This document shows positions 12,379 through 64,000 of a DNA stretch of 64,000 bases, piece after piece. Position numbers and translations under genes: made by a program. The notes under the pieces are model-generated. The model had not been told where the DNA came from. It made no database searches and saw nothing but the letters and a program-made list of their open reading frames with translations. The stretch is from a virus, in the IMG/VR virus record IMGVR_UViG_3300023179_000076, positions 1 to 64,000 of that record. One strand, written 5' to 3'. How positions within the stretch are numbered: position 1 is the stretch's first letter; each line of letters starts with the position of its first letter.

Positions 12379-12400
12379 ACAGTATAATTCCGGAGGCAAT

Positions 12401-14073: not shown

Positions 14074-14255
14074 TGTTAACAAAAACATTAGATCAAGTTG
14101 CTGTAGGCGAAAATTTTAAAGTTAATAATGTAGAGTATACTAAGATTCAAGAGGTTAGAGTAAGTTGTTGCAGAAGCGCTAATTGTCACGTTGTTGCAGA
14201 TAGTAATCAAAGGACTTTTTTCCCAGGAAACACAGTAGTGGAGACAAATGGCTAA
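14073..14255 (+). CDS. Small conserved-looking phage protein
   Basis: A 60-residue protein. The pattern QVAVGENFKVNNVEYTKIQEVRVSC followed by a Cys-Cys-Arg-Ser turn and a short strand-rich tail resembles small beta proteins found near replication genes in many phages, with the conserved 'G-x-x-F...Y-x-K' spacing. The Cys-Cys and later Cys could bind metal, but no full site is evident. Start overlaps the polymerase piece stop by one base (TAATG) and its end overlaps the exonuclease gene by 8 bases. Function unknown. Confidence 0.55.
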   Translation: MLTKTLDQVAVGENFKVNNVEYTKIQEVRVSCCRSANCHVVADSNQRTFFPGNTVVETNG

Positions 14256-14949: not shown

Positions 14950-14954
14950 TATTT

Positions 14955-39700: not shown

Positions 39701-40483
39701 AGATCCTCCGTAAGGATCCAATATTATCCAACAATTATCCAATAGATTTTCAAAACCCTCTATTGTTACACTATATGTTATTCCTCCTGGTCTGTTATTT
39801 CTTTCCCAGTTTTTAACTAATCCTATAAATTCAAAATTATCAAATTTAAAATATACTGGAGTATTTATAATATCATAAGTCCATAAACCATTGGCGCCGG
39901 GAGTATTAAGGGGTTGTCCATTATGGCCAGCGCTTCGAGATATGCCTCCGCCTGGCTGTACTTTGGTGCCTGTTGCAAAGAATCCTGGATCTCCATGCAT
40001 CCAATATTTGGAAACAAATCTATTATTTATCCATTCATAATATATTTTACCAGGAACATTTTTTTCTTTTGGCGGATCAGGAGTCCCATCCTGTTTGGTT
40101 CTGTTAGGATTATAAGGATTTCCTAATTCATCCACATAACAATCATTGCCAGAGCATTCATAGTAATGATTGGGCAAATAAGATAAATCATTATAGTGTG
40201 GAATATTATAGAAATCTCTACCTAAACTTCTATTTCCATTATGCCCACTAGGCAATGGAGATATTTGAGGTTCGCCTGGTAAAGGAGCTGACGACTCGTC
40301 ATGAAGATGTCCATAGTCCGCTGGTTGGTTTTGATAAAATTTTCTAAAAGGAACTTGACCAAAAGGCTGAACATCTTCTATTAACTCAACAGTGAGACTA
40401 CTACGATTCCCACCCCAGCCAACACTACTACTATAACCAATAACACTAGCTCCTAAAAATAGTGTTTGTCCTACAACCTTCAT
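33755..40483 (-). CDS. Giant baseplate/hub-like protein, 2242 residues, with internal zinc ribbon
   Basis: Start ATG 40483 has a TAGGGAT upstream and lies 2 bases after the previous stop. The N-terminal 250 residues (MKVVGQTLFLGASVIGYS..., then FEFIGLVKNWERN and TYSVTIEGFENLLDNCWIIL) have the strand pattern of tail hub proteins that set up a beta-barrel like gp27/gpD. Residues 1180-1400 are strongly helical (DNLDQSDAELASVAQIAAEN). Near 1773-1818 is a zinc ribbon (CPYCYNKRYI ... CPVC). Frequent Pro-Gly and aromatic loops suggest a multi-domain scaffold. It is probably a central baseplate protein, contacting the tape measure side; no single family covers it. Confidence 0.6.
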   Translation of the reverse strand: MKVVGQTLFLGASVIGYSSSVGWGGNRSSLTVELIEDVQPFGQVPFRKFYQNQPADYGHLHDESSAPLPGEPQISPLPSGHNGNRSLGRDFYNIPHYNDLSYLPNHYYECSGNDCYVDELGNPYNPNRTKQDGTPDPPKEKNVPGKIYYEWINNRFVSKYWMHGDPGFFATGTKVQPGGGISRSAGHNGQPLNTPGANGLWTYDIINTPVYFKFDNFEFIGLVKNWERNNRPGGITYSVTIEGFENLLDNCWIILDPYGGSIFGSQGLGKGTPVNDINLNNFNYNGLLSQGNIPNIFNVYGFLESFGIDFFGGSNKNENGLRAIDVLSGLAALTSSHTRLDRDAAFSPFGRILTKSMADIYGNIQDIKSFGIITPTIGTNRNIIDNPPPLYNTFSLDLSDIGGLISDYRIENRSQSISSFLNQLVSANGTDYTTRVIPAIDSDGLYQFVIKIMTVDRTEYRSPYNIRSIVTNLENQQYNISSSNFGQDVNENVTHKFIIGGPQQRLLQVKNYRLPYAQTNYIYNPILKKFITLNRPSNKARVPDVMSTRHPYISTLSLGPYIGNRLNTNDTERDTRFTSLDSQWKDIEVSAIGLSEEIIKGNYKNSNIYLSEYKSYIVREDDLNKDVQPSQPKEPCTPGQLSGDETLDTHYIDTTCVYFVPTPCPSKSREESNNSCSDNPELPGGNQSSQDPTMDKIPDFSDGGFVPITGFDAPASRYLNLHNDWICPYFGRTLEEQLPPADDANEFRSIRPVHLDIWTNQIVVSFYMHELPQVNIGEPLPLYDSSIFNKNRLTMDVMGAGLDRGEVGAGAGGTNSGSNSTPNPATGDAAEGSWQPLGTDPKRRYSYNKPGFTVTESEMRAAQVDFNSYLAYCLAKSKYSKPDLFLMLVSAYQLKGELFANEDLTTYNSVDDDDIKGGSGLHRGGVGERNVNHEGVNSIPGNAAKTDLNMNWNLYLNHNFIKDLQIVCEFIKNLADKYYGKQYMVKLPDMILYKDLQYSSIRIPGVYSSIAVYAGSNKIFKNYALAEGAWEEPGNFIDDCVMIGSNASKIFTDDNNLITPIAGYNNSLNIDDVRQRWCERDRQERIRRLFGEGDNSIGQRMLDSLSEAANEIDDIIDNLDQSDAELASVAQIAAENRIRTILNDIVKKHNRELEAQKELREFGTTINCISGLDRARMQLIWNNMWASINKSIKEYLQDPTVTGLATLADQWPSIINEAQQSILNMSLLTFGVHSLDISNLSGEADSDYIIVPVSSKKEPFGRPSPRSSKLFIKANDDKIVFGNIINLTDPRAIMTVDKLDVFDTSLAYVKDPGLSIIANIAIEDSLIYMKVKNKLQNLREERNEALDNGDQQRAEQILSDMHILKTEVDYIRYLKEYIVPEIDSRYLVATGPKANPSVDHARMAPRAAHPYFFAIPLVSNQFCYGPWTNYADNFIAQPYINNLIHHSKVEYDPELVPWKYGSSSALDRAVGYRLNADVNYQTVLERGSVSIVGPPIFGLGGIFFDNPSFTPPAGQYRFDNDNYRVRYVPNTFFDTKRNGYREITYDCIRIDHRGVSSDGPLISNISIQVGVAGVTTTYQFQTYNPKTGLYSKTYADAIREFNNDTSKLQKAIANVQNRLTSKIESARLKTLKQARTGRTPFGIDKFKTELYNESPIEIFVGQNITSLKNPVWWKDINTNLIKDIGDNPLPIGKTTEDRKRFLNQKRMYSWVGAVMGKEIGAELLQQYNSKAAMSLDGLMSPVSFYPTQYNRTFNISTYVAGSGVPVGNGNTDTTCPYCYNKRYITIPHIDYHTNAGEALTTTFYDDKTPADIQIPCPVCSRAKIDIKKNDKFPDSETGLPDINLYSLNPIVVSSGEFRNPYASGIDRCRHSIGAISRGEYNPTEESFYINTNINTYRNGHNPDFSRFDTKVKELENINVLLNQRFLALRGPLMMHGWGFDTDGYPIPNAYDMPYSIDDKGRQLRFQLVSDTGNNKFGSNNLEIFGKYEVSTGDTAPLGDIITTRYEWKGTGNGINTGNGKWTKKNKPSKKFYLNWAERPDLWPVGPIDVRWDNERRVWDASGGGCKEEILPPFIVTNRTDISTLQEFLENKTENKCPYRNIYVTLESDMIKEDDYDSTYSTRAFIDDIEYNKEPVQNGYRRLVYVIDKTGYTAPRGTKLLCRYDRFSGFYEPIGKPSVTAIGTIGTGNQARIEAHYVSGRRAGQAPVFVISYSNPLGLSASVGTKGIFIFINGKWTLSSARP

Positions 40484-40484
40484 T

Positions 40485-42491
40485 TTAATGATCCCTAAAA
40501 TCTCTTGTTATTGAAAGCTGCTGATATGTCCAGCTAACATTTCTAGAATACTTTCCAGTAGTAGGATTCCATGTTTCACCGTCCTGAGATGTATACACCA
40601 AACCTTCTCTCTGTGTGGGTTCATTAGGCAAGAACTCACTTGGAGAATATGGTCTATGTGCCTCTATAATTTTTTCAATAGTTTGGAAAAGATAGCCGCT
40701 TTTATGCATTGGACATGCTGGACTATTAATAGATAATTGATTAATACCTGTTATTGGCATTATTCCTATTTCTACACTAATTGTTTTTCTGGGTAAAGAT
40801 CTTCCAGTTCTTTGTATTATTGGGCCCAAAGCCCTACCTATAATATTTAATTCTGTGGTACTATCTACAGGATTATCATAATTCACACTAATATTTTCAC
40901 TAATTACGCCACTAATAATTGTTAATCTAGTACTATATTCATAACTATAATTTATTGTGCCTTTTCTTGGATCATGGCCTTCGCTTGTATTTATTGGAAT
41001 AGTACTAAGTAAAGTTTCTTTACTATATATGGGATTATTAGGAATAGTTGGAGGATTTGTAGTATAAGATGGTGTGTAGGTTATTGTTCTATCTGAACTA
41101 TTAACAGCTAAGCACGCTCTCCTATATAGCATTGGCTTGATGTGTTCTAACCAAGCATTACGAGCATTATCGTATTTGATACTTGATATAGACTGCGACA
41201 AAAGATTCGATGATGGCGATCCAAAAGCTGGTGGCGAAACAATATCTAAAGAATTATAAGTATTAGCATTAGATTGAGCATTAACATTGTAAGCATCCAA
41301 TCTTAACTGAGAGTCTATATCTCCACCATTACCAGTGCCACTAACTAAGACTCCACTATTTGTCATTAATCCTTGATTTGATATAGCTAAACCGACTATA
41401 CTACCAGCTACTCTTACTGTTCTAATATAATCTTCTCCAGTAGATGTTTCTAATGTATAAGTTTCGGTATATGGAACTCCACTAGGCATCGCCAGCCAAG
41501 TATCATTAATTTCATATGTGCCATTATATATATCAATATTAATTGTTCTATTATGATTAAAAGCAAATAAAGTTTGATCAAATGGATTTTTAAAATATGG
41601 AGAACTATTATTTGATATGTCAGATGTTTGAAAACTCTTTTTTGCCATATTCTCAACCCAAGTTTTAGCAAAAACATAGGGTTTTGTATTTTCATTATAT
41701 AATTCGGATCTAGATATTTTTCCAGTTGGATCATTTGGTCTGACAGACCCTTTAGCAGATAATCTTCTAGTTATACGAAACTGCGGAATATTGATAATTT
41801 GTAAAGAATGTGTTTCTGATGATGGTCCTCCAGGAGCGCTAAACGATGTTGGTCCGGCTCCGGGCGGTCTATTAAGTTTAGGATTACTATACTCATATTT
41901 TCCTGTTACTGATTTATTAAAACTTGTATATGTATTATCGTCTAAAGGCTCTATATTCCATGTGTCCTGTCTTTCTGTAACAAATGCCTCTATCGCATCG
42001 TCACCGCTTCCACTCCACAATCTTTCTGATCCTTCTAGACTAATTGTATAGTCCGCAGTTTGCACCCAATTATCTTCTGTATTATTAATTTGTATATCTC
42101 GTACCCTTAATCCACTTATTTCATGTAATATTTCAGAACCGCACTTAAATTTAAGAACACCATACGGATCATCTGTAAAAATTTTTCTTAATCCACTAAC
42201 ACCAGCTATGATGCCACTAAATCCTGGCATTGCTTTATTAGTATCTACGCCGCCAATATTTTGACCTTCTGGCCATCTAAGAATTTTACCAATAAGAGTT
42301 ACATTTGTTGTTACGCTTTCGGCTAGATCATTACCATTATTATTAAAACTATAACTAATATCAACAACAGGCACTGGTCCAGTTATAGAATGAATATCGG
42401 TACCATTATAATTTATTACTATCCTAGGTGTATTCCCAACACTCTGAGTAGTAAAATTATCTTGTTGTAAATTTAATTGATTATATACCAT
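40485..42491 (-). CDS. Structural protein, 668 residues, probable baseplate component
   Basis: A 668-residue beta-rich protein with no recognised family. The N-terminal part has a strand-turn pattern (RIVINYNGTDIHSITGPVPVVDISYSFNN) and a domain ending in DNWVQTADYTISLEGSERLW that resembles the strand-rich first domain of the adjacent 2242-residue protein (TYSVTIEGFENL), suggesting two related hub-like domains in neighbouring genes. The C-terminus reads YSRNVSWTYQQLSITRDFRDH. Located 9 bases before the propeller gene in the transcribed direction of the operon and 2 bases before the 2242-residue gene. Probably part of the baseplate. Confidence 0.5.
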   Translation of the reverse strand: MVYNQLNLQQDNFTTQSVGNTPRIVINYNGTDIHSITGPVPVVDISYSFNNNGNDLAESVTTNVTLIGKILRWPEGQNIGGVDTNKAMPGFSGIIAGVSGLRKIFTDDPYGVLKFKCGSEILHEISGLRVRDIQINNTEDNWVQTADYTISLEGSERLWSGSGDDAIEAFVTERQDTWNIEPLDDNTYTSFNKSVTGKYEYSNPKLNRPPGAGPTSFSAPGGPSSETHSLQIINIPQFRITRRLSAKGSVRPNDPTGKISRSELYNENTKPYVFAKTWVENMAKKSFQTSDISNNSSPYFKNPFDQTLFAFNHNRTINIDIYNGTYEINDTWLAMPSGVPYTETYTLETSTGEDYIRTVRVAGSIVGLAISNQGLMTNSGVLVSGTGNGGDIDSQLRLDAYNVNAQSNANTYNSLDIVSPPAFGSPSSNLLSQSISSIKYDNARNAWLEHIKPMLYRRACLAVNSSDRTITYTPSYTTNPPTIPNNPIYSKETLLSTIPINTSEGHDPRKGTINYSYEYSTRLTIISGVISENISVNYDNPVDSTTELNIIGRALGPIIQRTGRSLPRKTISVEIGIMPITGINQLSINSPACPMHKSGYLFQTIEKIIEAHRPYSPSEFLPNEPTQREGLVYTSQDGETWNPTTGKYSRNVSWTYQQLSITRDFRDH

Positions 42492-42499
42492 ATTTTATA

Positions 42500-43834
42500 T
42501 TAAATATTTTTTTGTGTCCAAGAAATTCCACTATCATTACTAATATATACTTGTCCATTCATAACCGACGCTATCAATTTAGTACCATCGCTATTGCTTG
42601 CTATGCTAGTCCAGCTTCTATTGCTTTCTCTAGCTGTCCAAGAAATCCCGCTATCTGTGCTTGTATATATTTGGCCTCCACTATGTGTCGCAACAAGTTT
42701 TGTGCCATCACTACTACCAGCAATACTAGTCCAATATCTTGTGGATTCTCTTGCTGTCCAACTAGCTCCAGTGTCTGTGCTTGTATAAATATTTGTATTG
42801 ATTCCAACAACAGCCATTTTGCTTCCATTATCACTAATGGTTGCTTCTTGCCAAGAACCATCTGGTAGACTTATAATTGCAGAAGAATTAACACCAAAAT
42901 TTATACTCTTATATATCTTGTTACCAGTAGTTTCACCCCCTAGTATTATGCTACCATCAGAATCGCTTGCTACAAAAGTCCAGGCTCTGGATATAGACAT
43001 AGTTGACCAATTATCGCCAAAATCATCACTAATTAAAATTCTACCATTCTCAATAGCAACCATAATATACCCACCATCTTTGCTAATATAAACATCAGTA
43101 ATACCAAATCCTTCCGAGATACTTTTATTTGTCCAAGTAATACCGCTATCACTACTTATATAAATATCATTATTATCAAGACTTGTTGATGCTACTATTT
43201 TAGTCCCATCCGCGCTCATAGACACACTGTTCCATGAATCAATATTATTTCTAGGTGTCCATGATAAGCCACCATTTGTGCTAGTATAAATATTGCCAAA
43301 TGATGCTACTGCCACCAATGAATTACCGTCGGCACTGCTAGCCACAGCACTCCATTGCCTACTACCTAAGCTGGTTGAAGTTACAGTTGGTGTTGGTGTT
43401 AAAGTTCTTGTTGGAGTTTTGGTTGGTGTTATACTTGGTGTTGGTGTTTGTGATGGAGGTATATAACTAGGAGTAACAGTTGGGGTTACAGAAGGAGTTA
43501 CTGTTACTGTTGGTGTGGGAGTAGGTATAGGAGGATCACAACTATTATAATCTGGACATTTAATAAAATTACTATAAGTTAAACTATTATTTTCATTAAT
43601 ATCAAAAACATTAACTTCTAATAATAGATTGCTAATTCTCGTATCTTTAGTGAGTAAAACAAAGGCATTTTTAACAGAACTAGCTGCTCTAAAATTAAAA
43701 GAATATTTATCTAAATTAGCATTATATTGATTTTGAGCGTAGTGTATTTTATAGGTTACAAGATACTCGTGACATATTAATAAATTATTTAATTGAATTG
43801 GAATAACATCTGTAGAAACAAAAATATCTGTCAT
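42500..43834 (-). CDS. Asp-box beta-propeller adhesin on a Thr/Pro stalk
   Basis: A 444-residue protein with SD AAGGA 7 bases before the ATG. Residues 1-100 form a small beta domain ending in CPDYNSC, like the Cys caps in the neighbouring genes. Residues 101-157 are an almost pure Thr/Pro/Ser linker. Residues 158-444 hold seven repeats of 40-42 residues, each ending in an Asp-box-like S-x-D-x-G-x-x-W (near 184, 226, 268, 309, 351, 391 and 431); the fourth is degenerate. Seven blades make a closed sialidase/sortilin-type propeller. Such propellers on phage tails bind glycans or proteins. It has no catalytic sialidase residues that I can see, so binding is more likely than hydrolysis. Confidence 0.75.
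   Translation of the reverse strand: MTDIFVSTDVIPIQLNNLLICHEYLVTYKIHYAQNQYNANLDKYSFNFRAASSVKNAFVLLTKDTRISNLLLEVNVFDINENNSLTYSNFIKCPDYNSCDPPIPTPTPTVTVTPSVTPTVTPSYIPPSQTPTPSITPTKTPTRTLTPTPTVTSTSLGSRQWSAVASSADGNSLVAVASFGNIYTSTNGGLSWTPRNNIDSWNSVSMSADGTKIVASTSLDNNDIYISSDSGITWTNKSISEGFGITDVYISKDGGYIMVAIENGRILISDDFGDNWSTMSISRAWTFVASDSDGSIILGGETTGNKIYKSINFGVNSSAIISLPDGSWQEATISDNGSKMAVVGINTNIYTSTDTGASWTARESTRYWTSIAGSSDGTKLVATHSGGQIYTSTDSGISWTARESNRSWTSIASNSDGTKLIASVMNGQVYISNDSGISWTQKNI
43364..43534 (-). repeat. Thr/Pro-rich stalk, tandem low-complexity repeat
   Basis: Residues 101-157 of the propeller protein consist of TPTP, TPSVTPT and PTKTPTRT units, giving a GT-rich + strand with repeats of GGTGTT. 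This is typical of extended, possibly O-glycosylated stalks. The base composition is unlike the AT-rich neighbours on both sides, and such repeats expand and contract easily, so length may vary between isolates. Confidence 0.7.
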
Positions 43835-43852
43835 ATCTTAGTCCTTAGTTGG

Positions 43853-44992
43853 TCAATCGCACGAATCACTTCTACAAGCTAATCCAACAGTGTCATGAAC
43901 CTTTATATTTGTATTTGTATGAATCAGTTCAACAGTTAATAAAGTTTGAGCATAATCAGTAAGATTGGTACTCATTACAGTATTTATTTTTCCATATCCG
44001 CCACTCCCAAAATAAATCTCCCCACTACTTGGGCTAAATGTTAAAAACTGTGTGCCGCTAGAAGGAATACTATCAAAATTATAAGTATATTTTTCTCCAG
44101 GAATAGCATTACTAACATTAACGCTCATAAATTTTTGACCTTGACAACATCCTGGTTCTAGCGTTATTAATGGAGATCCACTAAAAACAATATTAGCGTA
44201 TCTAACACATGGTAGACAATTATCGCATTCTATAGCGGTCTCTTTACTAGTTGCTAAATCACCACACTCCGATAGTATACTCAGTGTTAAATTCGTATGA
44301 AGTTTTTTATTATTAAAATCTTTCTCAGCCATACTATCAAGAGTATATGGTAATAAATTCGATGTTCCGCTGGGACAATTTCCGGAAGGATAGCAAAACA
44401 TTAATTTGCTAACTATAGTTTCTGTTCCATCTTGTGACGCAATAAATGATCCGCTAATGGGTTTTAATATGCTAGGCCAATTACTATCATTACATGTAAA
44501 ACTATAATTATATTTCGCATTAGGTAATAATCCACTAGCTATCCCAGTAATACTAACTATATTAGATGACGTTAAAGTAATTTTACTAGGAATAGTTTCG
44601 CAGTTTTGACTGCCACATCCAGAAATATCAACACCCATTTGATAAACGCATCCCGAGCATTTAACAAGTTGAACCGGAGATTGAATAATTGACCCATCTC
44701 CCAAACTAGTGACTTTGGCAGATATATTCGTGAATACTTCGTCTGTTTGATACCCACAAGTTAATAGATCATAATCTAAATAGTTTTGATTGTGAGATGA
44801 TCCTGTTGTGGGTAAAAATATAATAGTAGTATCTATATTTCTAGTTTTACTTGTTGCTGTAAAAGAACCGCTAGGAGGCAACGCTATAACGGGCCAATTC
44901 CCACCAAGTCCGACTATATCGTATCTATAATCTTCTCTTTTTATTAATCCACTAACTGGAATAGATAGATTAAAGTTATTATTTTTTTTCAT
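43853..44992 (-). CDS. Adhesin-like protein with repeated Cys-capped beta modules (second of pair)
   Basis: Start chosen at ATG 44992 (AAGG 9 bases upstream); a TTG at 45013 would overlap the previous gene. The 379-residue protein has about three copies of a 110-130-residue module, each with a Y-x-Y strand, NWP-like turn (in two copies), SG-x-(F/I) strand, F-x-P-x-(S/T)-G loop and a terminal Cys pair (KCSGC, ECDNCLPC, ACRSDSC). The first copy lacks the N-terminal strand. The same module is present twice in the preceding gene. No known domain name is assigned; an Ig-like beta sandwich is likely. A role as tail-tip adhesin is inferred from context. Confidence 0.55.
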   Translation of the reverse strand: MKKNNNFNLSIPVSGLIKREDYRYDIVGLGGNWPVIALPPSGSFTATSKTRNIDTTIIFLPTTGSSHNQNYLDYDLLTCGYQTDEVFTNISAKVTSLGDGSIIQSPVQLVKCSGCVYQMGVDISGCGSQNCETIPSKITLTSSNIVSITGIASGLLPNAKYNYSFTCNDSNWPSILKPISGSFIASQDGTETIVSKLMFCYPSGNCPSGTSNLLPYTLDSMAEKDFNNKKLHTNLTLSILSECGDLATSKETAIECDNCLPCVRYANIVFSGSPLITLEPGCCQGQKFMSVNVSNAIPGEKYTYNFDSIPSSGTQFLTFSPSSGEIYFGSGGYGKINTVMSTNLTDYAQTLLTVELIHTNTNIKVHDTVGLACRSDSCD

Positions 44993-45003
44993 AATTAAAA
45001 ACC

Positions 45004-46215
45004 TTATAAGCAATCATTACAATATATTGTTAGTGGCGTGCTATATACACTACTGCTGTTTTGAAATAAATAATATGGCTCCGTACATGTGTTTGGGGTA
45101 ATTTTTAGAACAAAAGATGTGTAATAAGATTCTATAAATTTTGGATCAACAGTATAATCTAAAACAGAAGAATCCGTAGATGGACAAAGACCAGTTGTTG
45201 GACAGAATGTTAGTCTTGATGTTAGTGTAAAGTCTTCATTTGGCCTGTAAGAAGTTATAACTCCACTAATTGGTGTTATAAACATAGCTGGCCAATTGCC
45301 ACCAATACCAACATATTCATAAGTATAATTTTGTGTCGGTTCCAAATTAGATATTACAGAAGAAACATTGACAGTGTTTGTGGATGTAAGATCTATAGAT
45401 GGACTATATTGTTGTAAATTAATGCGTACTCTTGGTAAGCAGTCTTTGCACTCCATTGTGATAGGATTACTCTTAACAGTTATACCACTAAAAGATACTG
45501 GTTTTATTTCTAATTCGAATGTACTATATAAATCTATCTCATTAAAGTTAGGACATCTATTTTTAATATTGCCCATAATTATATCTGGATCAATTACACA
45601 AGAACAACAGGAACCAGAAGTTGCACAAAAAGATAAAACTGAACTTAATTTAGCCTTATCTGTTGATGGCCTAATTATTCCGGATATTGGCGATATGGTA
45701 ATTGGCCAATTTGCAGATAAGCCCTTGTACTCATACGAATATGTTTCATATTGTTGAAGCTGTCCTATTTCTGGTTTTATTACAATACTATTACCAGAAT
45801 TAGCTGAAAGAGAAATATTATTTATTCCTGTTATAATTGGAGCTAGACTATTATCAGTAAATCCTGCTACGGCATCTCCTAATATGGGAACAATTATTGG
45901 TAGACTATCTAAATTTCTTACTATGACATAATAAGATTCTTTTGAATCTAATTGTGTAAGAGTTGAGTCGGGGTGCGGTTGATAGCCGATATTATTATTT
46001 CCAAGAGAATCTGTTAAGGAAACCCTACGAGTCCAAAATACTGGAATATTATCATTTATATTTTGACTACCATATATGGAGTCTATAGATTGTATAAATG
46101 TGTTATATTGTGATAACAATATTGGATTATTGCTGAATTCCTCTGGAATTTCCATTAGGTTTAATGGTTCAGATCCAGCGTATGTAAAAATATAAAATTG
46201 ATTATTAATAATCAT
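45004..46215 (-). CDS. Adhesin-like protein with repeated Cys-capped beta modules (first of pair)
   Basis: A 403-residue protein. Residues 1-125 form a first, different domain (with TYAGSEPLNL and DSLPIIVPILGD). Then two copies of the module at about 125-262 and 263-403: TYSYEYKGLSANWPITISPISG / NYTYEYVGIGGNWPAMFITPISG-type strands, an FCATSG / FCPTTG loop, and a closing Cys pair (ECKDCLPRVR, YCNDCL). The C-terminus stops in the Cys pair exactly where another module begins in the next gene, so the two genes may derive from one split repeat protein. No signal peptide; part of the tail operon. Confidence 0.55.
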   Translation of the reverse strand: MIINNQFYIFTYAGSEPLNLMEIPEEFSNNPILLSQYNTFIQSIDSIYGSQNINDNIPVFWTRRVSLTDSLGNNNIGYQPHPDSTLTQLDSKESYYVIVRNLDSLPIIVPILGDAVAGFTDNSLAPIITGINNISLSANSGNSIVIKPEIGQLQQYETYSYEYKGLSANWPITISPISGIIRPSTDKAKLSSVLSFCATSGSCCSCVIDPDIIMGNIKNRCPNFNEIDLYSTFELEIKPVSFSGITVKSNPITMECKDCLPRVRINLQQYSPSIDLTSTNTVNVSSVISNLEPTQNYTYEYVGIGGNWPAMFITPISGVITSYRPNEDFTLTSRLTFCPTTGLCPSTDSSVLDYTVDPKFIESYYTSFVLKITPNTCTEPYYLFQNSSSVYSTPLTIYCNDCL

Positions 46216-46269
46216 ATAAATTAATATCTCAAAAGTAATTTAATTATAAGTAATATACACCTAAGTCAT
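46216..46269. other. Short intergenic gap in the late operon
   Basis: A 54-base gap, AT-rich, between the 403-residue and 300-residue genes. I see no clear sigma70 promoter, T-run terminator or strong hairpin in it. It is one of the few gaps in the right arm. Confidence 0.4.
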
Positions 46270-53846: not shown

Positions 53847-56800
53847 TTATGTGAATCTTCTAGGATCTATATCTATATTAAAATCTATAGTATCGTTTTG
53901 TGGATTTTTTGCTTTAAGATCCGCAAACGCGCCTCGGATGGCAGATATAACTATTCCGGCTATATCTGGTCGTAATTGATTCAATACTGTATCTCCATTA
54001 ATTGTGACAACAACATCGTGTTTTCCTGTTATAGTAATTTGTGGTGGTATATAAATATTACTAAGTATATTAGCAATATTATTTAATCTATTAACAAAAT
54101 TATCAATACTAGCAAGATCAGCCCCATTATTAGATACACCACCACCAGCATTGTTTGGTTGTTTTAGACCAGACAGTGCTTTATCAAAAGCTTCTGTTAT
54201 ACTACTACTAACGGCTCCTACTAGACTATTTAAATATTTGGTAAAATCAAAAGATGGAGTAGCAGAGCCTGCGGACCCCATTAAGCCTCCAATAAATTTA
54301 TATTCTGGAATATATCCACCTTTATTTAAATAATTAACTATTCCACCTCTGCTATAATTACCATTATTAATAGCTTCAAGAACAGGCTTATATTTTTGAG
54401 TTGAATCCCTATTAACTACAAATTCACCAGGTGTCAACATAGCCGGAACAGTATCAGTACCTCTTGGTTTAAAATTAATTAGTCTACCATTATTAGCATA
54501 TATTAATCCACCAGCTTGATGATGTTGAACATTTTCTGATTTCATATCCATATCATGCAAGTATTTCTTTACTGCAGTCATCATAGTATTATGCACACCC
54601 GTAGCGAAACCAGCAACTGCTTGATCTCCTTGATGAGCAGCGTTCAATAAAGTCTGAAGTGTTGTTTCTTGCATTTTAATAAATGCATTTGGATCACTAA
54701 ATGCAATATCTAAACCAGATGGTTGAATTTCTCCACTAATACCACGAAAACCCAACATATCTCTGGTTTGTTTTGGGTCTATCTTATTGGGGTAGGCGAC
54801 TCTAACAGGAGCAACTTGTTCCATGGTTGGCATAGCAGCACCAACCAATGGATCTTCGATCTGAACACGACGATATTTTTCTAGATATGTATTTAATGCT
54901 TGCTCTTGTATTGTGCCTGGAGGAATTAAAGGTTCTGCTGGAGCAAATTTAGATATATTCGCATTTAATTTATCTAATAACTCTTGAGATACTGGTTGAT
55001 TTTCAAAATTTTTGCTAGCTTTTTGAACTAATAATTTTGCCTCTGGACTTAGAGTGTTGCTCAAAACACTAACATTACTAAGAACCTGGTCTAAAGTTTT
55101 ACCCGATTGTAATTCTGCTACAACATTACCTTGTAAATATGCTATAATTCTTCTAACATCTTCCTGAGTATAATATCCAAGTCCTTGATTTCCCCAACCC
55201 GGTCTTCTAGCATCCATATTCTCTGGTATAGCGCCGGGTAAACCCGTTCTAGGGGATATCCCCTCTGATCCACCACTAATAGTTCGTTTAGAAAGTGTTG
55301 GAGTTTCTCCTTGTTGAGTATTGGTATACTGTTCTGGAAAATTATTTTCTCGGGATGCTCTAATGGCACTAAATACCTTTAAATCTTCTCCATCAATTCC
55401 GGCCATGCGCAACATGTCACGATTAATAACGTCGTCACCAATCAATAGTTGAGCTGCTTTTTCAAATTGTGTCACATCTTCTGCTGTAAATTGTCTTTGA
55501 CCATAGCCAAATGCTCCAGTGCCGCCTCTGCCGGATGCTGGCATTCTTTGTGATATTCGATCCTGGATGATTTTTTCAGCCCATTTGGTTCTAGCTTCTC
55601 GTATTTGAGCACGACCAAAAGTGGCGCCACCGACCATAGCAGCGAGTATTTGATTTGTATTAAGCTCCCACAAGCTTTTTGGCACATGAGGATCGTCGGG
55701 GCTAGTAACTATCATCTCGCCAGCATTAGTCAATACCTGAACACCGGCATCTGATGCTCCAGAAGCTATGGCTGCTACAGCCCTATCTGTCCATGCTCTC
55801 TTTGATGTAAGAGTCTGTGCCTCTCTAACAATTCCAGAAACACCAGCTCGATAACCAGCTTGAGCTAAACTAGCACCCATGGGAACTATAGATCCTGCTG
55901 TTGTAGCATATGGATTAGCTTCTTTAATTTCATCAAATCTTTCTTTAACGCCAATGGCTTCTTCTAATTTGCCCATTCCAAAACTTGTAGCAGCATATGT
56001 TGCGCCATATACTATTGGTATAGCTAAAGCATAAGCTACTGTCCCCCACGGGGGAGCAGCAGCCATAGGAGACAATGCTGTTGATGCGGCACCAGCTGCT
56101 TGCGAAGCGGCTAAATGAGCAACTGTAGATTCTCCAGCAGATATACCAAAGGCTGTAAGAGTACTATTTTCTCTAGCCTTTTGCCTATCTTGTCTTCTTC
56201 TGGTTTCTTCGACAGCATAGGCTAGTTCAGCCCATGTAACATTGGTATATGGTATTGTGTCATCTTGACTAAACTTATTTCTTTCCAAATCTTCTAGATT
56301 AATATTTCTCATTGATCTGGGTGCATCAGATTTCCAAATACTAGGATCGACAGTATAAACACCGGGAGCTATTTCTTCGAGAGTGGGAGATATGGGGCTG
56401 GGCCGATTATCTCTACGAGAACTATCAGAAGTCATATCTGTATCTAAATGCATTCCGCCAGCCGCATAAATAATCCCGCCCTTACTATAGCCTTTACTGC
56501 CAGAGTTTATGGCTTTGAGTAATGGTAGATTAGCTTTTGTTGCGGCCCTATTAATCACAAATTCACCAGGCGTTAACATGGCCGGAACAGTGTCTGTTCC
56601 TTTTGGTTGAAAATTTATCAGCCTACCAGTACTAGCATAAATCAATCCGCCTCTTGCTTTATTAATAGGTTCCTCGATCTCTAATTGTAATTGATCGAAT
56701 AATCGCTCGCTGTCCGGTAATACCCCGTATTTATTTCCTGTTAAAAAAGCATGTGCTGGTTGAGCTGTTAGTCTTCTAAAACCATCAAAATTATTTTTAT

Positions 56801-59800
56801 TGAATGGTTGTGATAGTTCTTCTTGAGATTTTGCAAAATCTGCTCCTAAGTTTAAATATTTATCCTGATAATCAGTATACCACTCTTTTAAGATATCAAT
56901 ACTTTTAGCAGCTGTGAGCGCTGTGGGATCTCCGTAATCAAATACAAGATTTCCATTTTGATCCGTTCCTTTCTTATATAGTTCTTCCAAAACGCTTAAG
57001 TATTTTTCACTTCTAAAAGTTGGGGTAGCAAATACATTTCGTGGATTTAAACCTATATCCATCACATCTTTATACGACTGAGGAACAAGTTCCTTGTCGC
57101 CTTGAAGAAGAGTGTCCCCACCATCTTCATAAATTCTAGCCTGTGAACCACTAATCTTAAGTTTTTCTTTATCTTCATCACTTAGTGTTCCGGCAAAAGC
57201 TGTTCCGCTTTTTAATGCTATTTCTCTATTAATAATATTTTTGATTGGACCTTCAGCAGATTTTGGATCCAAATAATCAACATAGGCTGCTTCTTTTTTA
57301 TCTTTAAATCCAGGAACAGGAATCTGTGGAGATTTTTTAGGATCTGTAAAATACTTATTATTAATTGGTAATCCTAATCCTTTAAGAAATTGAGGAGTAT
57401 CAAGATCAGTACCTTTATAAGTTCCTTTATATAATTCTACAAAAAATGCTCTATAAGCATAATTTTTTAACCATTCTGGATTAGTTAATCTTTGATCAGG
57501 AACTGTTTTTGATAAATCTTTAGATAATTTAGTTTCATTATCATTAAGTTCTCTAATTATAGAGCGAACATCTTCTAGTTTAGCTGGTTTAGCAGATTTG
57601 ATCCCGATTGCTTTTTTACCAATATCATAAACTGCTCGTGCAATACCAACTTTTTTAGCATTTGTAAAAGCATCTCCTGTTTCTAGTTTTATTTTAGGTT
57701 TGGTTTTAGCAGTATCTACAGCTTCATTCTTAAATACTTCTGCTGCTCTATCTTTTAGATTTTCTTTAAACTTTAGAGCATCGACCTCCATATCTGTTAC
57801 TACAGACGGAACAATATACGGAACAAAATCTTGTAATACCGACTTATATTGATTGCCTAACTCAGATTCAACACTATCAAAACCACCCATAGGATCAGCA
57901 AACATGTATTTGAAAGTTTTTTCGGCTCCTATTAATTTTCCAGTTTTATTATCATATTGATTAGTATTATTTTTTAATTGATTATTAAAATTTTGCCATT
58001 GATTTTCTGGAATAAATAACTTATCTTGTGACATTTCTCCAAAAGGAGATCTATTATTATCTTGTTTATCTATAACATAATAATTAATTGGTTCTCCAAC
58101 AAATTGTCTTTTTGATGTATCGTATCTTGTGCCTCTTGTGATTTTTCTGTAAAAAAACCAAGGCGCTAAATCTTTTTCTTTTCCGTATTCTATAGGTGGA
58201 CTTAAAGTATCAAATAGTTTTTGAGGCTTGGGTCCGAATTGTGATTTACCAGATGATACAAAATTTTCATGAGTGATATCAGTAACATTAAAGTCTTTAG
58301 ATAGCCACGGATACGAATCAATTCTATTTCCTGTTTTTAGATCTATCAAATCAATAAAATTATCTGTATCAGCTTTAAAATCATCATTTATAGGCAACAA
58401 ATCTGCCAAATTATTTCCATTATTCTTTGATTTTTCTAATTTAGTTTTGAATTTATCTATTTGATTTTGCCATTGATTTGCTCCAATATTATATAAAGTT
58501 AAAGGTAATAGTTTGCCCTTAGCTTTTTGTCCATCTAAAATATTTTCATCTTCATCCCCTAATTCTATAGAGAATAATTTTTTATTTGCAAAATCTTCTA
58601 GTAAACTTATAATTGTTTTTTTATTTTGAAATTTTGAAGATGCTACAAATTTTTCTTTATCCATATTTTCAATGACTCGTTCTAAATTAGCATAGTTTTG
58701 TTTTGTAATGGATAAGTCCGCAAAAGCCTGCGAATAGTCAGATAGTAAACCGCCTGAGCCTCCTGCCGATTTATAATCTGTAAGATTCTCAATTTTTACC
58801 CCACCTCCGGTATTTGAGAATACTCCTTGAGGCATTCGACTAAGATTAATTGGATATGCCGCTGACTCCGAAATTTTATCTTTGCTTAAAAGATATTTTT
58901 TAGTTGAATCACTAACAGCTAAATTGTCTATAGACGCTTCGGAATTCGGATACCCAAAAAAAGCTCGTGGTATTTTTATATCAAGGACACTGTCTTTAAT
59001 TCTTGGAATAAATTTATCTTGAGTGGTAATATCCTTATCCAATATATTTTTATCAATTAAATTTAATATATTTTTATAAATAGGTTTATTTTTTTCTAAT
59101 TGCTGTTTTGTTATCGGTTTTTCATCACTAGACAAAAATTTGGATGTATCTAATAACGATTTGATTATTCTTTCAGCTCCTAAACCATTATACATATAGG
59201 AGTTTTTATCATTAACATCTATACTATTACCAACATAAGAAGATCCGGGAACTATGTTAAAATTACTATTTGGTACTGGTTTTTTAATTATTTTTTGTGT
59301 AAACCAATTTCTCTCTGCTGGAAACTCAATATCTTGTGTATATTTTTTATATGCTCTGGCGGGAGTTAATAGAAGTTCTTTTTGGTCGTCTGCTTTTGGT
59401 TCTTTTTTAACTTCTGGATAAGATTTTGATGTTTGTAGCTCGGTTTTGTCTCGTTCTGATGATTGATATAATTTTTGTTTATCTGGTGTTGTCCAATTCT
59501 CTCCAGGTACAATACCACCATCTTGTAGATAATTAATCTTTCCTCCTCGACTACTATTAATACTTTGTAATAATGGTAAATTACGTCTAGTCGAAGCTCT
59601 ATTAACAACAAATTCTCCAGGAGTTAACATAGCCGGTACGGTGTCCGTACCTTTTGGAGCAAAGTCTATGGATGCTCCATTACTGGCATAAACGATACCT
59701 CCGGTAGCAAATCCTGATGCTTTTTGATTATTTGCTACTAAATTTTTTAAATTAATAATTTCTAATCTAATATCATTCAATATTTTCTCTTCAAATGTAA

Positions 59801-62800
59801 ATTTAGTTTCTTGAAGTGCAACTTTTAATTTTTCAGCAGCATTTTTTGCTGTATTTTCTGACATTAATTCTTTGATTTCGCCTAATCTAGCATTTGCGCT
59901 AGCTTGTAGGCTAACTCCTTGCTTATAAACACTAATAGCTTCTTGCATCTCCGGATCACCTTCCGGATTTCGTAAACTATCCAAAACTTGTGCAAACATT
60001 GGGGTAACGCCCTGTCCACTTTCAAGCAACATACTTTCTAGTACATTAGCTCTTAATTCATTTTGTTTAGCTCCTTCTCCCAATAAGGGGGCTATCATAT
60101 TAAAAGATTGTAAACTCTCTGATCTTTGTTCAGCGGTTGTTCCGCGATTTACAATACCTCTCATATTATTATCTAATCTGTTCAAAGAACTATTGAATTT
60201 ATTAAGCTCTTCGGAATTTGATGTTACAATTTTTTCTATTAAATTAGCGCCTGACTGCCTTTTTGCTTGAATTTCTTGTATTTTAGCTAATGCAGCACTA
60301 GCTATCTCACTACTTTCGGCTAGATTTTTAAGCGCATCAAAATTTTGTCGTAATGCTAAATTATTATTACGAAGTCTATCTTGCATAGTCTTAAATTCAT
60401 CCTCTGCTGACGGTCCTTTTGCTGCGGCAGAATCCGAGGCTTGTTGTAATGTTTGTCTAGAATTTTCTAAATTTTGAATATTTCTAGATATTCTAACAGG
60501 ATCTGTTTCTCCTCCTGTTTGTCTTCGTGCTTTATCTAATGTTTGTGTCAAGGTTTCTCTTAAACTAATTTCTCTTCCAAACACTTTAGATAATTCATTA
60601 TTTGATGAAGTAATAATATCTGATGCTTTATTAAAAGCCTGATTTGCTTCTAACTGAAGATCTATCATAGTATTCATAGCATTAGCATATTCATTTACTG
60701 CATTCTGATAGAATTCCATAGCCCTAACAGCACTTTCCTGTGCTCGTTTAGCAGCTTCTATTTGTTTTGTTAAGCCTGGAACTTTTTCTGCTATTTCATC
60801 AAAATTAACTTGGTCTAAATCTCCTTTAGTGCTAATATCTTTGAGAGCGCTCTGAATTTGTTTACTAAAAGATGGAACTAAACTATCAGGAATTTGTAGA
60901 TCTCTTAATTGTTTATCTAAATTAGATCTAATTCTAGCTAACACTTTTTCATTAGTTGCATTTGGATCTTCTTTACGTGTTCTATTAATTGTTTGTAAGA
61001 TAGTATCTTCTAGTTGACCAGCACCAATATTAAGAATTGATGATATTGGTTGGCTCGCTGATCCAAAAAATGAACCAGCAAAATTTACAGCCTTATCTTG
61101 TTCTTCTTGGGAGTATACACCTCTGTTTTGTAGTACATTAATGGCTTTTAAGTTAACCTGTCCAGCTTTAGCATTGCCATTTAAAGAAGCAGTAGCTAAT
61201 TCAGCGCTATTAGATAGTTGTTGAATTTTGAAAGATGCCTTATTTATTGACATCTCCATATTAGAATATATTCTTTCCATACTATTAACAAACGTATTAA
61301 CGCCCTTATTTAATTTTTCAAATTCTATTTCTCTAGCAACTCTAGCGTTATTTAATATGATTTGTTTTTCCGCTTCTCTTGCTATTATTCCATCTATTAT
61401 TTTTTTTCTCTGGTCATCATCTAAATCTGCTCTAGCTTGGGTTTCTATAATTTGTTGTGCTACGATAGGATTTGATCTTGCGATAGTGTCAGCAAATTGT
61501 GAAACATTACCATTAGCGTCTTTTATAGAGGCTAATATTTCATCTTCTGATTTTTGACCACTTCTCATTTGCTGTTCAAAAACTCTAAATATATTATCTG
61601 CTAATGGCTTAAACATTGCTGATTGCTGTTGTGCCAATCCAGGGGCTAAAGCAAACATATTTGATTGTCTATTTAGAGCTGCTTGTTCATTAGCTGACCT
61701 ATTGCTGAATATTTTAGTATCATACATGCTTGATCCACTCAATGCTTTAAAAATAGCATCTGGTATTCCAAGAGCAAGAGCATTAGCAGTCATTCCTATT
61801 GGAGCATTACCAAGTGTAGTAGATTGCAAATATGCTCCAACTCCTTGTTGTTGTAAAATCATGCTTCTTTGTGTTGCTTCTGATCCAGAAAAAGCCATTG
61901 CATCTATAATATTTGTCCAAAACATAGCCGGTACTTCCGTATCAATCTTTAGTCTTGCCATAGCAGCAGATATTCCAACATTTATTTGATCTGTTATATC
62001 TTTTAGAATACTTAACTTAGTCATATCTTTACTAAATTCATCAAATAGTATAGATATTCTATCCAAGCTTGTTTGTAGTTTTTTACTAGCTAATTCTTTA
62101 TCAAATTCTCGTGCCGCATTATAAGCATCTTTAAATGCTGCTGCTAAACTTATAGCGGCGGTTGCTGCTATTCCAAATGGTCCAGTTAATACTTTTGTTA
62201 GTCCAGGCAAAACTGATCCTGCTAATTTTCCTATTCCTGTACCACTAAATATAGTAGAAGTAGATAATTCTTTTAATGTTTGAAGACTTTGGCCAATACC
62301 AACCGCTAATGTTGAGGCTGTGGATGTTCCACTAGAAATTGCTGCTGCTGCCATTGCTGCGTTTCTGCTTTCTGTTGCATCTATAAATTTAGCTATAACA
62401 CTACCAGCAGCTCCTATAGCTAAACCAAATTTACTAAATTTTGCAGATATTTTATCGATTTCCTTAAATAGTTGTTGAGTTTCTCCTCTGGATTTTAATG
62501 CTTCTCCTGTGGCTCCTTTAATTTGTTCTGGTTGTATCTTATTTTGAGCAGCAATCATTGTCGCTGCTCTGGATACAATTGCTTCATCGGTTGATATATT
62601 CTTTATAGCATCAGTTAAACTTTGAACATTAAAAGCTTGTGTTGGAGTAGCCCCCTGTTTTAACTGATCCATAATATCTTTTAGTATTTTATTACTATCA
62701 CCAGCAAAATTTTCTCCTAGAATATTTTCAAGAGTATCTCCTATACTTTCTTCTAGTTGTGAAATATCTATAGCTTTTCTCTCTTGTCCTTCTTGATTAG

Positions 62801-64000
62801 CATATTCTCCTTTTGCTTCTCTAGCGCTTATATTTTCAAGACTTTGTTTAGCATCAAATAATTGTTCTTGAAAACTATCTAAAGCTCTAGGAAGATTATT
62901 CTTAAATTGTTCAGCTAAATTTAAAGCCTGATCAGATAATGACTGAGAATATTCCTCAAGACTTTGTCCGGCTAGTCTTGCTCTCAAAGCCAAATAATCG
63001 TTCGCTGTGGCAGCAGCCTGGGCCTTATTTTTTGTTTCGGAAATTTGTGATATTATATCTTTTATATTGGTGCCTTGTCCTAGATCAGTCACATCAAATG
63101 CTTGTAGTCCTCTAGATCTAATAGTCTCGCTAAGTGCTTGTTGTCTTGCTTCTTGTGTGGACGGCACCTCTGGTCCTAGTACATTGCTAAAATCTTGCTC
63201 CATAATATTGATTGATCTAGTATCAATTTCTTGTTGTAACCCAGATATATATTCTTCTGTGGATTGATTAGCTTCTTTAGCTCTTTGAGCTAATAGTTCT
63301 TGTAGTATTATTTGTTGTTGAGCAGCTTTATTGGCCTGTATGGTAGCATCAACAGCTTGAAATTTTAGCCTAGCTTCATCTTGTATCGCTTGCTTATCTT
63401 CTCTGGACGATGCTGCTCTGTATAATGGGTCATATTCTGATTTGATTCTTTCTTTTGACTCTATTCTTTGAGCAATTGCTTCGTTTTCTACTGCTGCTAG
63501 TTTTTGCTCGGCAGATTTGGGTACGGGAGGTGGGGTTGGTGATAAAGAAGATCTGTTTCTGCGACGAGGGCGTGGTGGAGTAACTGTATATGTTGTTGTT
63601 GATTTTGGAGGCTCTATAGGAGCAGGATTTTGATATGTATCTATTGCTTTATTTAGAGCATCAATATAATGAGTCATTATAGCATCAACTTCTGCCGTTG
63701 TTTTTCCTTGTTTAGCCAAAGACACGACTACTGCGCGGTAGCTTTGCACCATCAAACTAGCATCGTCTAATGTTGCATCGATAGTACTATGATATCTATC
63801 TAAAGTCTTTGCTAAAATCGGAGCCACTTTGTCTATCTCTTGCCAGGCTGAATAGCTATTACTTATCATTTGTTCTGTAGTTCTAAAGCTATCTACTAAT
63901 AATATTGCACTTGTCTTTAGAAATCCAAGATCAGGCATGAGCGTCCGAATACCAGTTGTGTCTTTTCTTCCATAAGAAACCTTATCACCGTCTTTAAATC
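53847..64000 (-). CDS. Tail tape measure protein (at least 3363 residues), 5' end outside the window
   Basis: The frame is still open at the window edge. The first in-window ATG (63938) lacks a good SD, and the upstream residues (FKDGDKVSYGRKDTTGIR) look like protein, so the true start is probably beyond 64000. N-terminal 500 residues are helical and coiled-coil rich. Near residues 500-630 are hydrophobic segments (KFGLAIGAAGSVIAKFI, GPFGIAATAAISLAAAF) and another set near 2580-2630, typical of tape measures that cross the inner membrane during injection. A motif KGTDTVPAMLTPGEFVVNR occurs three times (about residues 1433, 2455 and 3165). Tape length sets tail length in siphoviruses and myoviruses; this one implies a long tail. 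Confidence 0.9.
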   Translation of the reverse strand, partial: FKDGDKVSYGRKDTTGIRTLMPDLGFLKTSAILLVDSFRTTEQMISNSYSAWQEIDKVAPILAKTLDRYHSTIDATLDDASLMVQSYRAVVVSLAKQGKTTAEVDAIMTHYIDALNKAIDTYQNPAPIEPPKSTTTYTVTPPRPRRRNRSSLSPTPPPVPKSAEQKLAAVENEAIAQRIESKERIKSEYDPLYRAASSREDKQAIQDEARLKFQAVDATIQANKAAQQQIILQELLAQRAKEANQSTEEYISGLQQEIDTRSINIMEQDFSNVLGPEVPSTQEARQQALSETIRSRGLQAFDVTDLGQGTNIKDIISQISETKNKAQAAATANDYLALRARLAGQSLEEYSQSLSDQALNLAEQFKNNLPRALDSFQEQLFDAKQSLENISAREAKGEYANQEGQERKAIDISQLEESIGDTLENILGENFAGDSNKILKDIMDQLKQGATPTQAFNVQSLTDAIKNISTDEAIVSRAATMIAAQNKIQPEQIKGATGEALKSRGETQQLFKEIDKISAKFSKFGLAIGAAGSVIAKFIDATESRNAAMAAAAISSGTSTASTLAVGIGQSLQTLKELSTSTIFSGTGIGKLAGSVLPGLTKVLTGPFGIAATAAISLAAAFKDAYNAAREFDKELASKKLQTSLDRISILFDEFSKDMTKLSILKDITDQINVGISAAMARLKIDTEVPAMFWTNIIDAMAFSGSEATQRSMILQQQGVGAYLQSTTLGNAPIGMTANALALGIPDAIFKALSGSSMYDTKIFSNRSANEQAALNRQSNMFALAPGLAQQQSAMFKPLADNIFRVFEQQMRSGQKSEDEILASIKDANGNVSQFADTIARSNPIVAQQIIETQARADLDDDQRKKIIDGIIAREAEKQIILNNARVAREIEFEKLNKGVNTFVNSMERIYSNMEMSINKASFKIQQLSNSAELATASLNGNAKAGQVNLKAINVLQNRGVYSQEEQDKAVNFAGSFFGSASQPISSILNIGAGQLEDTILQTINRTRKEDPNATNEKVLARIRSNLDKQLRDLQIPDSLVPSFSKQIQSALKDISTKGDLDQVNFDEIAEKVPGLTKQIEAAKRAQESAVRAMEFYQNAVNEYANAMNTMIDLQLEANQAFNKASDIITSSNNELSKVFGREISLRETLTQTLDKARRQTGGETDPVRISRNIQNLENSRQTLQQASDSAAAKGPSAEDEFKTMQDRLRNNNLALRQNFDALKNLAESSEIASAALAKIQEIQAKRQSGANLIEKIVTSNSEELNKFNSSLNRLDNNMRGIVNRGTTAEQRSESLQSFNMIAPLLGEGAKQNELRANVLESMLLESGQGVTPMFAQVLDSLRNPEGDPEMQEAISVYKQGVSLQASANARLGEIKELMSENTAKNAAEKLKVALQETKFTFEEKILNDIRLEIINLKNLVANNQKASGFATGGIVYASNGASIDFAPKGTDTVPAMLTPGEFVVNRASTRRNLPLLQSINSSRGGKINYLQDGGIVPGENWTTPDKQKLYQSSERDKTELQTSKSYPEVKKEPKADDQKELLLTPARAYKKYTQDIEFPAERNWFTQKIIKKPVPNSNFNIVPGSSYVGNSIDVNDKNSYMYNGLGAERIIKSLLDTSKFLSSDEKPITKQQLEKNKPIYKNILNLIDKNILDKDITTQDKFIPRIKDSVLDIKIPRAFFGYPNSEASIDNLAVSDSTKKYLLSKDKISESAAYPINLSRMPQGVFSNTGGGVKIENLTDYKSAGGSGGLLSDYSQAFADLSITKQNYANLERVIENMDKEKFVASSKFQNKKTIISLLEDFANKKLFSIELGDEDENILDGQKAKGKLLPLTLYNIGANQWQNQIDKFKTKLEKSKNNGNNLADLLPINDDFKADTDNFIDLIDLKTGNRIDSYPWLSKDFNVTDITHENFVSSGKSQFGPKPQKLFDTLSPPIEYGKEKDLAPWFFYRKITRGTRYDTSKRQFVGEPINYYVIDKQDNNRSPFGEMSQDKLFIPENQWQNFNNQLKNNTNQYDNKTGKLIGAEKTFKYMFADPMGGFDSVESELGNQYKSVLQDFVPYIVPSVVTDMEVDALKFKENLKDRAAEVFKNEAVDTAKTKPKIKLETGDAFTNAKKVGIARAVYDIGKKAIGIKSAKPAKLEDVRSIIRELNDNETKLSKDLSKTVPDQRLTNPEWLKNYAYRAFFVELYKGTYKGTDLDTPQFLKGLGLPINNKYFTDPKKSPQIPVPGFKDKKEAAYVDYLDPKSAEGPIKNIINREIALKSGTAFAGTLSDEDKEKLKISGSQARIYEDGGDTLLQGDKELVPQSYKDVMDIGLNPRNVFATPTFRSEKYLSVLEELYKKGTDQNGNLVFDYGDPTALTAAKSIDILKEWYTDYQDKYLNLGADFAKSQEELSQPFNKNNFDGFRRLTAQPAHAFLTGNKYGVLPDSERLFDQLQLEIEEPINKARGGLIYASTGRLINFQPKGTDTVPAMLTPGEFVINRAATKANLPLLKAINSGSKGYSKGGIIYAAGGMHLDTDMTSDSSRRDNRPSPISPTLEEIAPGVYTVDPSIWKSDAPRSMRNINLEDLERNKFSQDDTIPYTNVTWAELAYAVEETRRRQDRQKARENSTLTAFGISAGESTVAHLAASQAAGAASTALSPMAAAPPWGTVAYALAIPIVYGATYAATSFGMGKLEEAIGVKERFDEIKEANPYATTAGSIVPMGASLAQAGYRAGVSGIVREAQTLTSKRAWTDRAVAAIASGASDAGVQVLTNAGEMIVTSPDDPHVPKSLWELNTNQILAAMVGGATFGRAQIREARTKWAEKIIQDRISQRMPASGRGGTGAFGYGQRQFTAEDVTQFEKAAQLLIGDDVINRDMLRMAGIDGEDLKVFSAIRASRENNFPEQYTNTQQGETPTLSKRTISGGSEGISPRTGLPGAIPENMDARRPGWGNQGLGYYTQEDVRRIIAYLQGNVVAELQSGKTLDQVLSNVSVLSNTLSPEAKLLVQKASKNFENQPVSQELLDKLNANISKFAPAEPLIPPGTIQEQALNTYLEKYRRVQIEDPLVGAAMPTMEQVAPVRVAYPNKIDPKQTRDMLGFRGISGEIQPSGLDIAFSDPNAFIKMQETTLQTLLNAAHQGDQAVAGFATGVHNTMMTAVKKYLHDMDMKSENVQHHQAGGLIYANNGRLINFKPRGTDTVPAMLTPGEFVVNRDSTQKYKPVLEAINNGNYSRGGIVNYLNKGGYIPEYKFIGGLMGSAGSATPSFDFTKYLNSLVGAVSSSITEAFDKALSGLKQPNNAGGGVSNNGADLASIDNFVNRLNNIANILSNIYIPPQITITGKHDVVVTINGDTVLNQLRPDIAGIVISAIRGAFADLKAKNPQNDTIDFNIDIDPRRFT
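54340..54514 (-). repeat. Tape measure GTDTVPAMLTPGEF repeat, copy 3
   Basis: Encodes GGLIYANNGRLINFKPRG then TDTVPAMLTPGEFVVNRDST and GNYSRGGIVNYLNKGGY. It precedes the C-terminal 200 residues of the tape measure. Boundaries are approximate. Confidence 0.7.
56475..56657 (-). repeat. Tape measure GTDTVPAMLTPGEF repeat, copy 2
   Basis: Encodes GGLIYASTGRLINFQPKG then TDTVPAMLTPGEFVINRAAT and a Gly/Ser-rich end with GGIIYAAGG. Same architecture as copies 1 and 3, protein similarity about 60-70 percent by eye in the core. Boundaries are approximate. Confidence 0.7.
59520..59707 (-). repeat. Tape measure GTDTVPAMLTPGEF repeat, copy 1
   Basis: Encodes GGIVYASNGASIDFAPKG then TDTVPAMLTPGEFVVNRAST and LLQSINSSRGGKINYLQDGG. 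This Gly-rich linker plus TPGEF box is widespread in phage tape measure proteins and here recurs three times, separating large internal domains. Boundaries are approximate. Confidence 0.7.

Follow-up and report, generated by a model that had tools for sequence, protein, structure and literature searches.

Several phage tail or spike proteins with a known or presumed role in contacting the receptor contain beta-propellers. Gp45 of phage phi11 and P2 of PRD1 are receptor-binding propellers of this kind and gp131C of PhiKZ is a putative one (PMC4901313). The propeller of Gp45 has a cavity that could take GlcNAc, and gp131C is a seven-bladed protein of the baseplate periphery for which a receptor role has been speculated (PMC4901313). 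The endosialidase of phage K1F is a tailspike propeller loosely tied to the Asp-box cluster, in which source sortilin is also described, with a propeller of ten blades (PMC3797127). Phage receptor-binding proteins have been described as modular, with a conserved N-terminal anchor and a variable C-terminal part that swaps among close relatives (PMC10684548). Tentaclins are phage adhesins, presumed to be flexible, whose head is variable (PMC10743442).

The protein described here, 444 residues long, is encoded in a window of 64,000 bases (the whole stretch of DNA analysed), which is part of a 77,280-base virus record. It resembles Gp45, P2 and gp131C in having a propeller in a tail-gene setting. 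In contrast to it, both Gp45 and P2 have five blades, the stem of Gp45 is helical, and the portion of the source used here mentions no Thr/Pro stalk (PMC4901313). K1F is a six-bladed enzyme, whereas the window protein has seven predicted blades and no RIP motif. As in modular tail fibres, a near-identical N-terminal part bears different tips in close relatives (PMC10684548), but the joint here is a Thr/Pro stalk of 56–212 residues and the base gave no Pfam match at E≤1. In tentaclins the C-lec head is N-terminal and the Ig anchor C-terminal, the reverse of the present order of N-terminal base and C-terminal head (PMC10743442). A literature search by titles and the opening lines of abstracts found no Thr/Pro-stalked Asp-box phage propeller. 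The window protein is probably a modular tail adhesin whose recognition head can be exchanged, and the ligand of that head probably lies on the host surface.

Architecture and predicted fold

The gene occupies positions 42500–43834 on the minus strand, one frame spanning the whole interval. A first-pass annotation of the same DNA had described seven evenly spaced Asp-box units with similar first and last blades, joined by about 55 residues of Thr/Pro to a small Cys-containing base, and each of these elements was recovered. The base domain (43541..43834, minus strand; residues 1–98) is marked by Cys21, Cys93 and Cys99, which are invariant across the three bases of alignment A4. It is followed by a 56-residue stalk (43373..43540, minus strand; residues 99–154) that consists to 64% of Thr and Pro. 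These two residues make up 36 of the 56 positions 101–156, compared to 38 of the 388 elsewhere in the protein. The remainder is the Asp-box propeller (42503..43366, minus strand; residues 157–444), delimited by its boxes, by Pfam and by the predicted model.

The boxes start at residues 185, 227, 269, 310, 352, 392 and 432, with spacings of 42, 42, 41, 42, 40 and 40 residues. Repetition of S.D.G..W at about 40-residue spacing, the hallmark of Asp-box propellers, is therefore present. The strict pattern is matched by five of the seven boxes, one more has N replacing D, and the fourth is degenerate (SINFGVNS). Residue shuffles of the propeller part gave an expectation of 0.016 strict boxes and, in 20,000 trials, never more than two. 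Over 39 columns, blade 1 is 54% identical to blade 6, 41% to blade 7 and 38% to blade 5, but just 15–23% to blades 2–4; blades 1, 5, 6 and 7 are mutually 31–62% identical and blades 2–4 have diverged further. Two Pfam families passed their cut-offs on the propeller, Sortilin-Vps10 (41.9 bits, cut-off 33; best stretch at profile positions 2–107 of 446) and BNR (27.3 bits, cut-off 27). PSII_BNR, the profile of the YCF48/HCF136 family, was not among the four Pfam families matched at E≤1, and reached 14.1 bits (cut-off 27) in the protein of L009, one of the loci fetched from related or other viral records (L-numbers). PHROG 15511, of unknown function, aligns to residues 100–401.

A single-sequence AlphaFold2 model was discarded (mean pLDDT 37.7) and a run fed with the 23-row alignment A5 was used instead. 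This alignment consists of the window protein, L009, L017, L053, L055 and 18 hand-picked propeller stretches, drawn from a list of 30 limited to loci with five to eight clustered boxes. The mean pLDDT rose to 78.2, with 224 residues at 90 or above. Ten-residue blocks across the propeller (residues 161–444) averaged 74–98. The base was modelled poorly (block pLDDT 36–64, partly beta), residues 101–150 scored 41–50, and regular secondary structure is absent from about residue 100. With VIA-align, residues 157–443 were superposed on the designed seven-bladed nvWrap-T (7bie_A) with a Z of 32.9 and an rmsd of 2.3 over 278 aligned residues, and further propellers scored closely behind. The model thus predicts a propeller that closes with seven blades, in agreement with the closed ring that the first-pass annotation had left to structure prediction to refute. 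The top Foldseek rows were GH74 xyloglucanases, nvWrap-T and G-beta subunits; YCF48 came at rank 23 (5ojp_B, TMt 0.72). Neither phi11 Gp45, PhiKZ gp131C nor K1F was present among the best 50 matches of each PDB structure search, which does not speak against a relationship.

The earlier likening to sortilin and sialidases does not extend to membership. Seven repeats and a seven-bladed model exclude the protein from the ten-bladed Sortilin/Vps10 family. Sialidases (GH33 and endosialidase) have six blades and a RIP motif, against seven blades and no such motif here. GH74 xyloglucanases are glycan-cleaving enzymes with two propellers in tandem, and a single one was found in the window protein, which speaks against membership of that family too. 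What it shares with GH74 and YCF48 is the bacterial seven-bladed Asp-box fold, predicted in its model and, for GH74, accompanied by a match in the blade motif. It is unlikely that the propeller is an enzyme cleaving surface polysaccharide in the manner of an endosialidase or a GH74 xyloglucanase. GH74 enzymes are both sequence and fold neighbours (PDB sequence E 0.0014, residues 369–441), and the NCBIfam F510_1955 glycosylhydrolase profile gave 62.3 bits against a cut-off of 175. However, the PDB sequence match is confined to the repeat motifs of the last two blades, and blade number, lack of the RIP motif anywhere in the 444 residues and the single propeller all argue against an enzyme.

The fold had also been regarded as eukaryote-like and rare on phages, a view that had to be abandoned. 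Apart from the published phage propellers, a blade scan returned at least 40 viral loci with similar blades (two contigs counted double). Among the 40 loci listed, 37 have five or more boxes in their best frame (loose pattern) and five (L013, L017, L020, L024 and L041, of which L020 and L024 are identical) have at least 20 Thr or Pro in some 30-residue stretch. A viral structure library yielded 186 models at E≤0.001, including giant-virus proteins and other propeller types. Among 14 named prokaryote control genomes, the Sortilin-Vps10 profile matched in four, in two of them above cut-off. The L041 protein (1781–5731, plus strand; 1317 aa) is a relative of the product of a 403-aa gene of the window. 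Its propeller has seven boxes by a loose pattern, and it also carries a Thr/Pro stalk, another stalk and a HELGHALGIGIYW motif similar to that of zinc proteases; it matched no Pfam protease at E≤0.01.

Genomic setting and the slot in relatives

Between 63938 and 25277 all long ORFs lie on the minus strand, and the opposite strand holds short overlapping frames only. The phage-tail setting proposed earlier was borne out by two tape-measure-like genes upstream in the same run: one codes for 3363 aa (53847..63938, minus strand; phrog_25241, E 8.9e-17), and the other was scored in L004 (phrog_28, E 9.8e-25). The run also includes an fn3-bearing protein (47690–50266, minus strand) and a 1188-aa ORF (50279–53845) with an FGE-sulfatase-type domain (50798–51262, minus strand; 38.6 bits, cut-off 23.3). 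By tblastn, related FGE-type stretches are also present in L041 and L058, and visual inspection shows such stretches following Thr/Pro stalks in L070 and L077. A 2242-aa protein (33755–40483, minus strand) contains CPYC and CPVC pairs, zinc-ribbon-like by eye, and had no Pfam match at E≤0.01. In a comparison with L007, identity is 81–94% per 500-base bin over 35000–42499 and 95–100% in the flanking stretches 30500–34999 and 43500–49499, a pattern which suggests recombination inside the genes for the 668-aa downstream neighbour and the 2242-aa protein.

Elsewhere in the window, DNA polymerase III alpha (11080–16568, plus strand) is broken into three ORFs, carrying PHP and the first part (11080–12378), the next part (13189–14073) and the finger part (14955–16568). 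The first break is occupied by a LAGLIDADG/HNH-like endonuclease ORF (12368–13219) and the second by a polymerase-exonuclease-like ORF (14248–14949). No tRNA gene was found in the 64-kb window. Annotated phages gave no match for the 444-aa protein or its 668-aa neighbour, and 23.5 kb of tail-run DNA had no close counterpart in the annotated phage collection. The L055 protein weakly matches 13 Vibrio phage records (best E 4e-4), and the 'outer capsid protein' of VP2 appears in the viral structure search as well. An Alphaproteobacteria label is attached to L071, a 3.1-kb contig of a metagenome bin, and gives no evidence on the host.

The gene lies between a 386-aa neighbour upstream (43853..45013, minus strand) and a 668-aa neighbour downstream (40485..42491, minus strand), which flank this slot in relatives too. 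Searching with the base alignment gave 11 records. In all eight of those covered by tblastn (L009, L050 and L053–L058; the search left out L051, L059 and L060), the base sits between homologues of these two neighbours. Several numbers denote the same records (L009 is L052, L050/L051 are L002/L003, L056 is L017), and L053, L054 and L057, identical across 16,321 bases, were counted as one. The downstream gene is 57–90% identical in base-bearing records (tblastn) and 38% in L070, the most distant locus, which was inspected as an ORF list. The idea that the base is an extra copy of repeats in the neighbouring proteins was dropped, as hhalign gave no significant match (E 0.33 and 0.021, probabilities 0.2 and 2.2).

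What follows the base in this slot differs among the records. In L009 a base 61% identical to that of the window precedes a stalk of 91 residues and a tip of 426, in which two Asp boxes were counted; Sortilin reached 31.3 bits, below its cut-off. In L053 the stalk is 159 residues long and there are four boxes; in L055 it is 124 residues long, and the pattern used picks out six boxes in the tip. L056 combines a 212-residue stalk and six boxes with a BspA-type leucine-rich part slightly under cut-off. In L067, cut by the contig end, a stalk and another tip stand ahead of the 668-aa gene. The same slot holds a 3147-aa frame (stop to stop) in L058 (3276–12689, plus strand), and the frames of L059 and L060 are as long. 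A subtilase domain scores 142.9 bits in the L058 frame, which further contains fn3, two FGE-type stretches and weak matches to propellers, and whose base homologue is split in two halves in reversed order.

Exchange and loss of the tip

Tip exchange is most evident between L053 and L056. Their bases are 99% and their downstream genes 98% identical, against 36% for the tips. The DNA is 92% identical up to a point inside the stalk and 97% identical from just past the gene, and between these flanks it matches from stalk to stalk only. The window and L009 differ likewise, with 61% identity in the base, 89% in the downstream gene and 26% in the tip; their DNA shows no match over 42513–43508, and the nearest 500-base bins are 71–89% identical. 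When the five intact proteins are compared pairwise, tip identity falls below that of the downstream gene in all 10 pairs and below that of the base in 9, the exception being the window and L056 (tip 42%, base 41%). These tip identities are rough, as tips of unequal length were aligned globally, and L058–L060 were left out of the table because of their split base.

Between the window and L053, L055 or L056, base (39–41%) and tip (34–42%) have diverged about equally, with 71–77% in the downstream gene, which points to general fast change of the gene and not to tip exchange. Tip-specific change is clear from the sequences for the pairs L053/L056, L053/L055 and L055/L056 and those with L009 only. 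A conserved N-terminal part with a variable C-terminal tip is accordingly found for L053/L056 and the L009 pairs, and weakly for the window against L053, L055 and L056. The idea that stalk DNA serves as the recombination joint between different stalked genes found no support: by longest exact match, one of 28 pairs, the orthologous L053/L056, exceeded all 40 synonymous-codon shuffles, and the next, L056/L076, was equalled by one of the 40.

The tip can also be missing. In L002 and L003 a stretch of 937 bp corresponding to 42564..43500 (limits ±2 bases), nearly all of the stalk and propeller, is absent; the deletion is out of frame and the reading frame stops after 112 codons. Behind it a remnant of the last blade is kept, out of frame, which indicates that tip loss is the derived state. 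The two records differ at 11 of 16,395 positions and represent one lineage. L071, the metagenome-bin contig (3,140 bases), matches the window at 98.2% identity from end to end; a frameshift of one base in blade 4 reduces its frame to 310 codons. With the tip deleted in one close lineage and frameshifted in L071, it seems dispensable at least sometimes.

These losses could be read as decay of an accessory gene whose tip was once useful and has no current role, an explanation that has a small chance of being right. The 120-kb tip-less L002 record contains, elsewhere, a separate gene for a propeller-like protein on a Thr/Pro stalk (L076, 420 aa; 21.8 bits for the Pfam EPTP repeat, cut-off 21), which fits with decay as well as with an exchangeable head. 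Of the 288 propeller codons, 10 are different in L071 and the window (5 alter the residue), as against 0 of 98 base codons, numbers too few to weigh. However, the window has an uninterrupted frame, as do L009/L052, L053, L055 and L056 with their different tips; L002 and L003 count as one lineage, and the L071 frameshift may be an assembly error. Deletion and frameshift show that the tip can be missing; uselessness does not follow.

Role of the putative head

Two further explanations are improbable. YCF48 is a photosystem assembly factor that binds a D1 peptide, and the nearness of its seven-bladed fold would suit a propeller that docks a protein, for assembly or for holding a tail part, instead of binding a receptor. 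A free C-terminal end on a flexible stalk and the exchange of whole tips would, however, be unexpected for an assembly part, and such a role has very little likelihood. That the virion adheres to mucus, extracellular matrix, particles or other matter outside the host is hardly more credible: the stalk is mucin-like in composition and Ig-bearing phage adhesins, the tentaclins, have been proposed to bind gut cells (PMC10743442), but there is no sign of an animal setting. The sole relative with a site in its record title, L071, has 'Lanier' there, presumably Lake Lanier. Of the ligands put forward in the first-pass annotation, host glycans are plausible for the putative head, and nothing in this analysis pointed to extracellular matrix.

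A modular tail adhesin is favoured, because an anchor, a flexible stalk, a free head and turnover of that head together form the pattern of phage receptor-binding proteins, for which the propellers of phi11 Gp45 and PhiKZ gp131C provide a parallel. Since relatives keep the base but carry another head or none, the protein looks like an exchangeable surface grip. The conserved base would anchor it to the tail, the flexible Thr/Pro stalk would keep the head clear of the tail, and the propeller at the free end would bind a surface ligand, most likely a glycan or protein of the host cell. The tip would act as an exchangeable cassette, swapped or lost while the base and the neighbouring genes are retained, and its exchange may alter recognition. 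Against the adhesin stand the poor model of the base, whose profile found no match to the neighbouring tail proteins, the near-equal divergence of base and tip between the window and L053, L055 or L056, and the occasional absence of the tip, and other genes of the run, for instance that of the 1188-aa FGE-type protein, could encode the main receptor binder.

A wider proposal, which is put forward tentatively, is that the locus serves an undescribed group of phages as a dedicated slot for exchanging heads. A conserved socket with a Thr/Pro stalk of variable length would take seven-bladed propellers, propellers with leucine-rich repeats and other heads. Several stalked heads would be present per genome, headed and headless forms would coexist, and recognition would shift by swap or drop of a whole head.

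If the tip is a recognition head, L053 against L056, together with the tip-less L002, would offer natural comparisons for the role of the propeller head. Asp-box propellers would then be a reusable head among environmental viruses rather than a eukaryote-like oddity.
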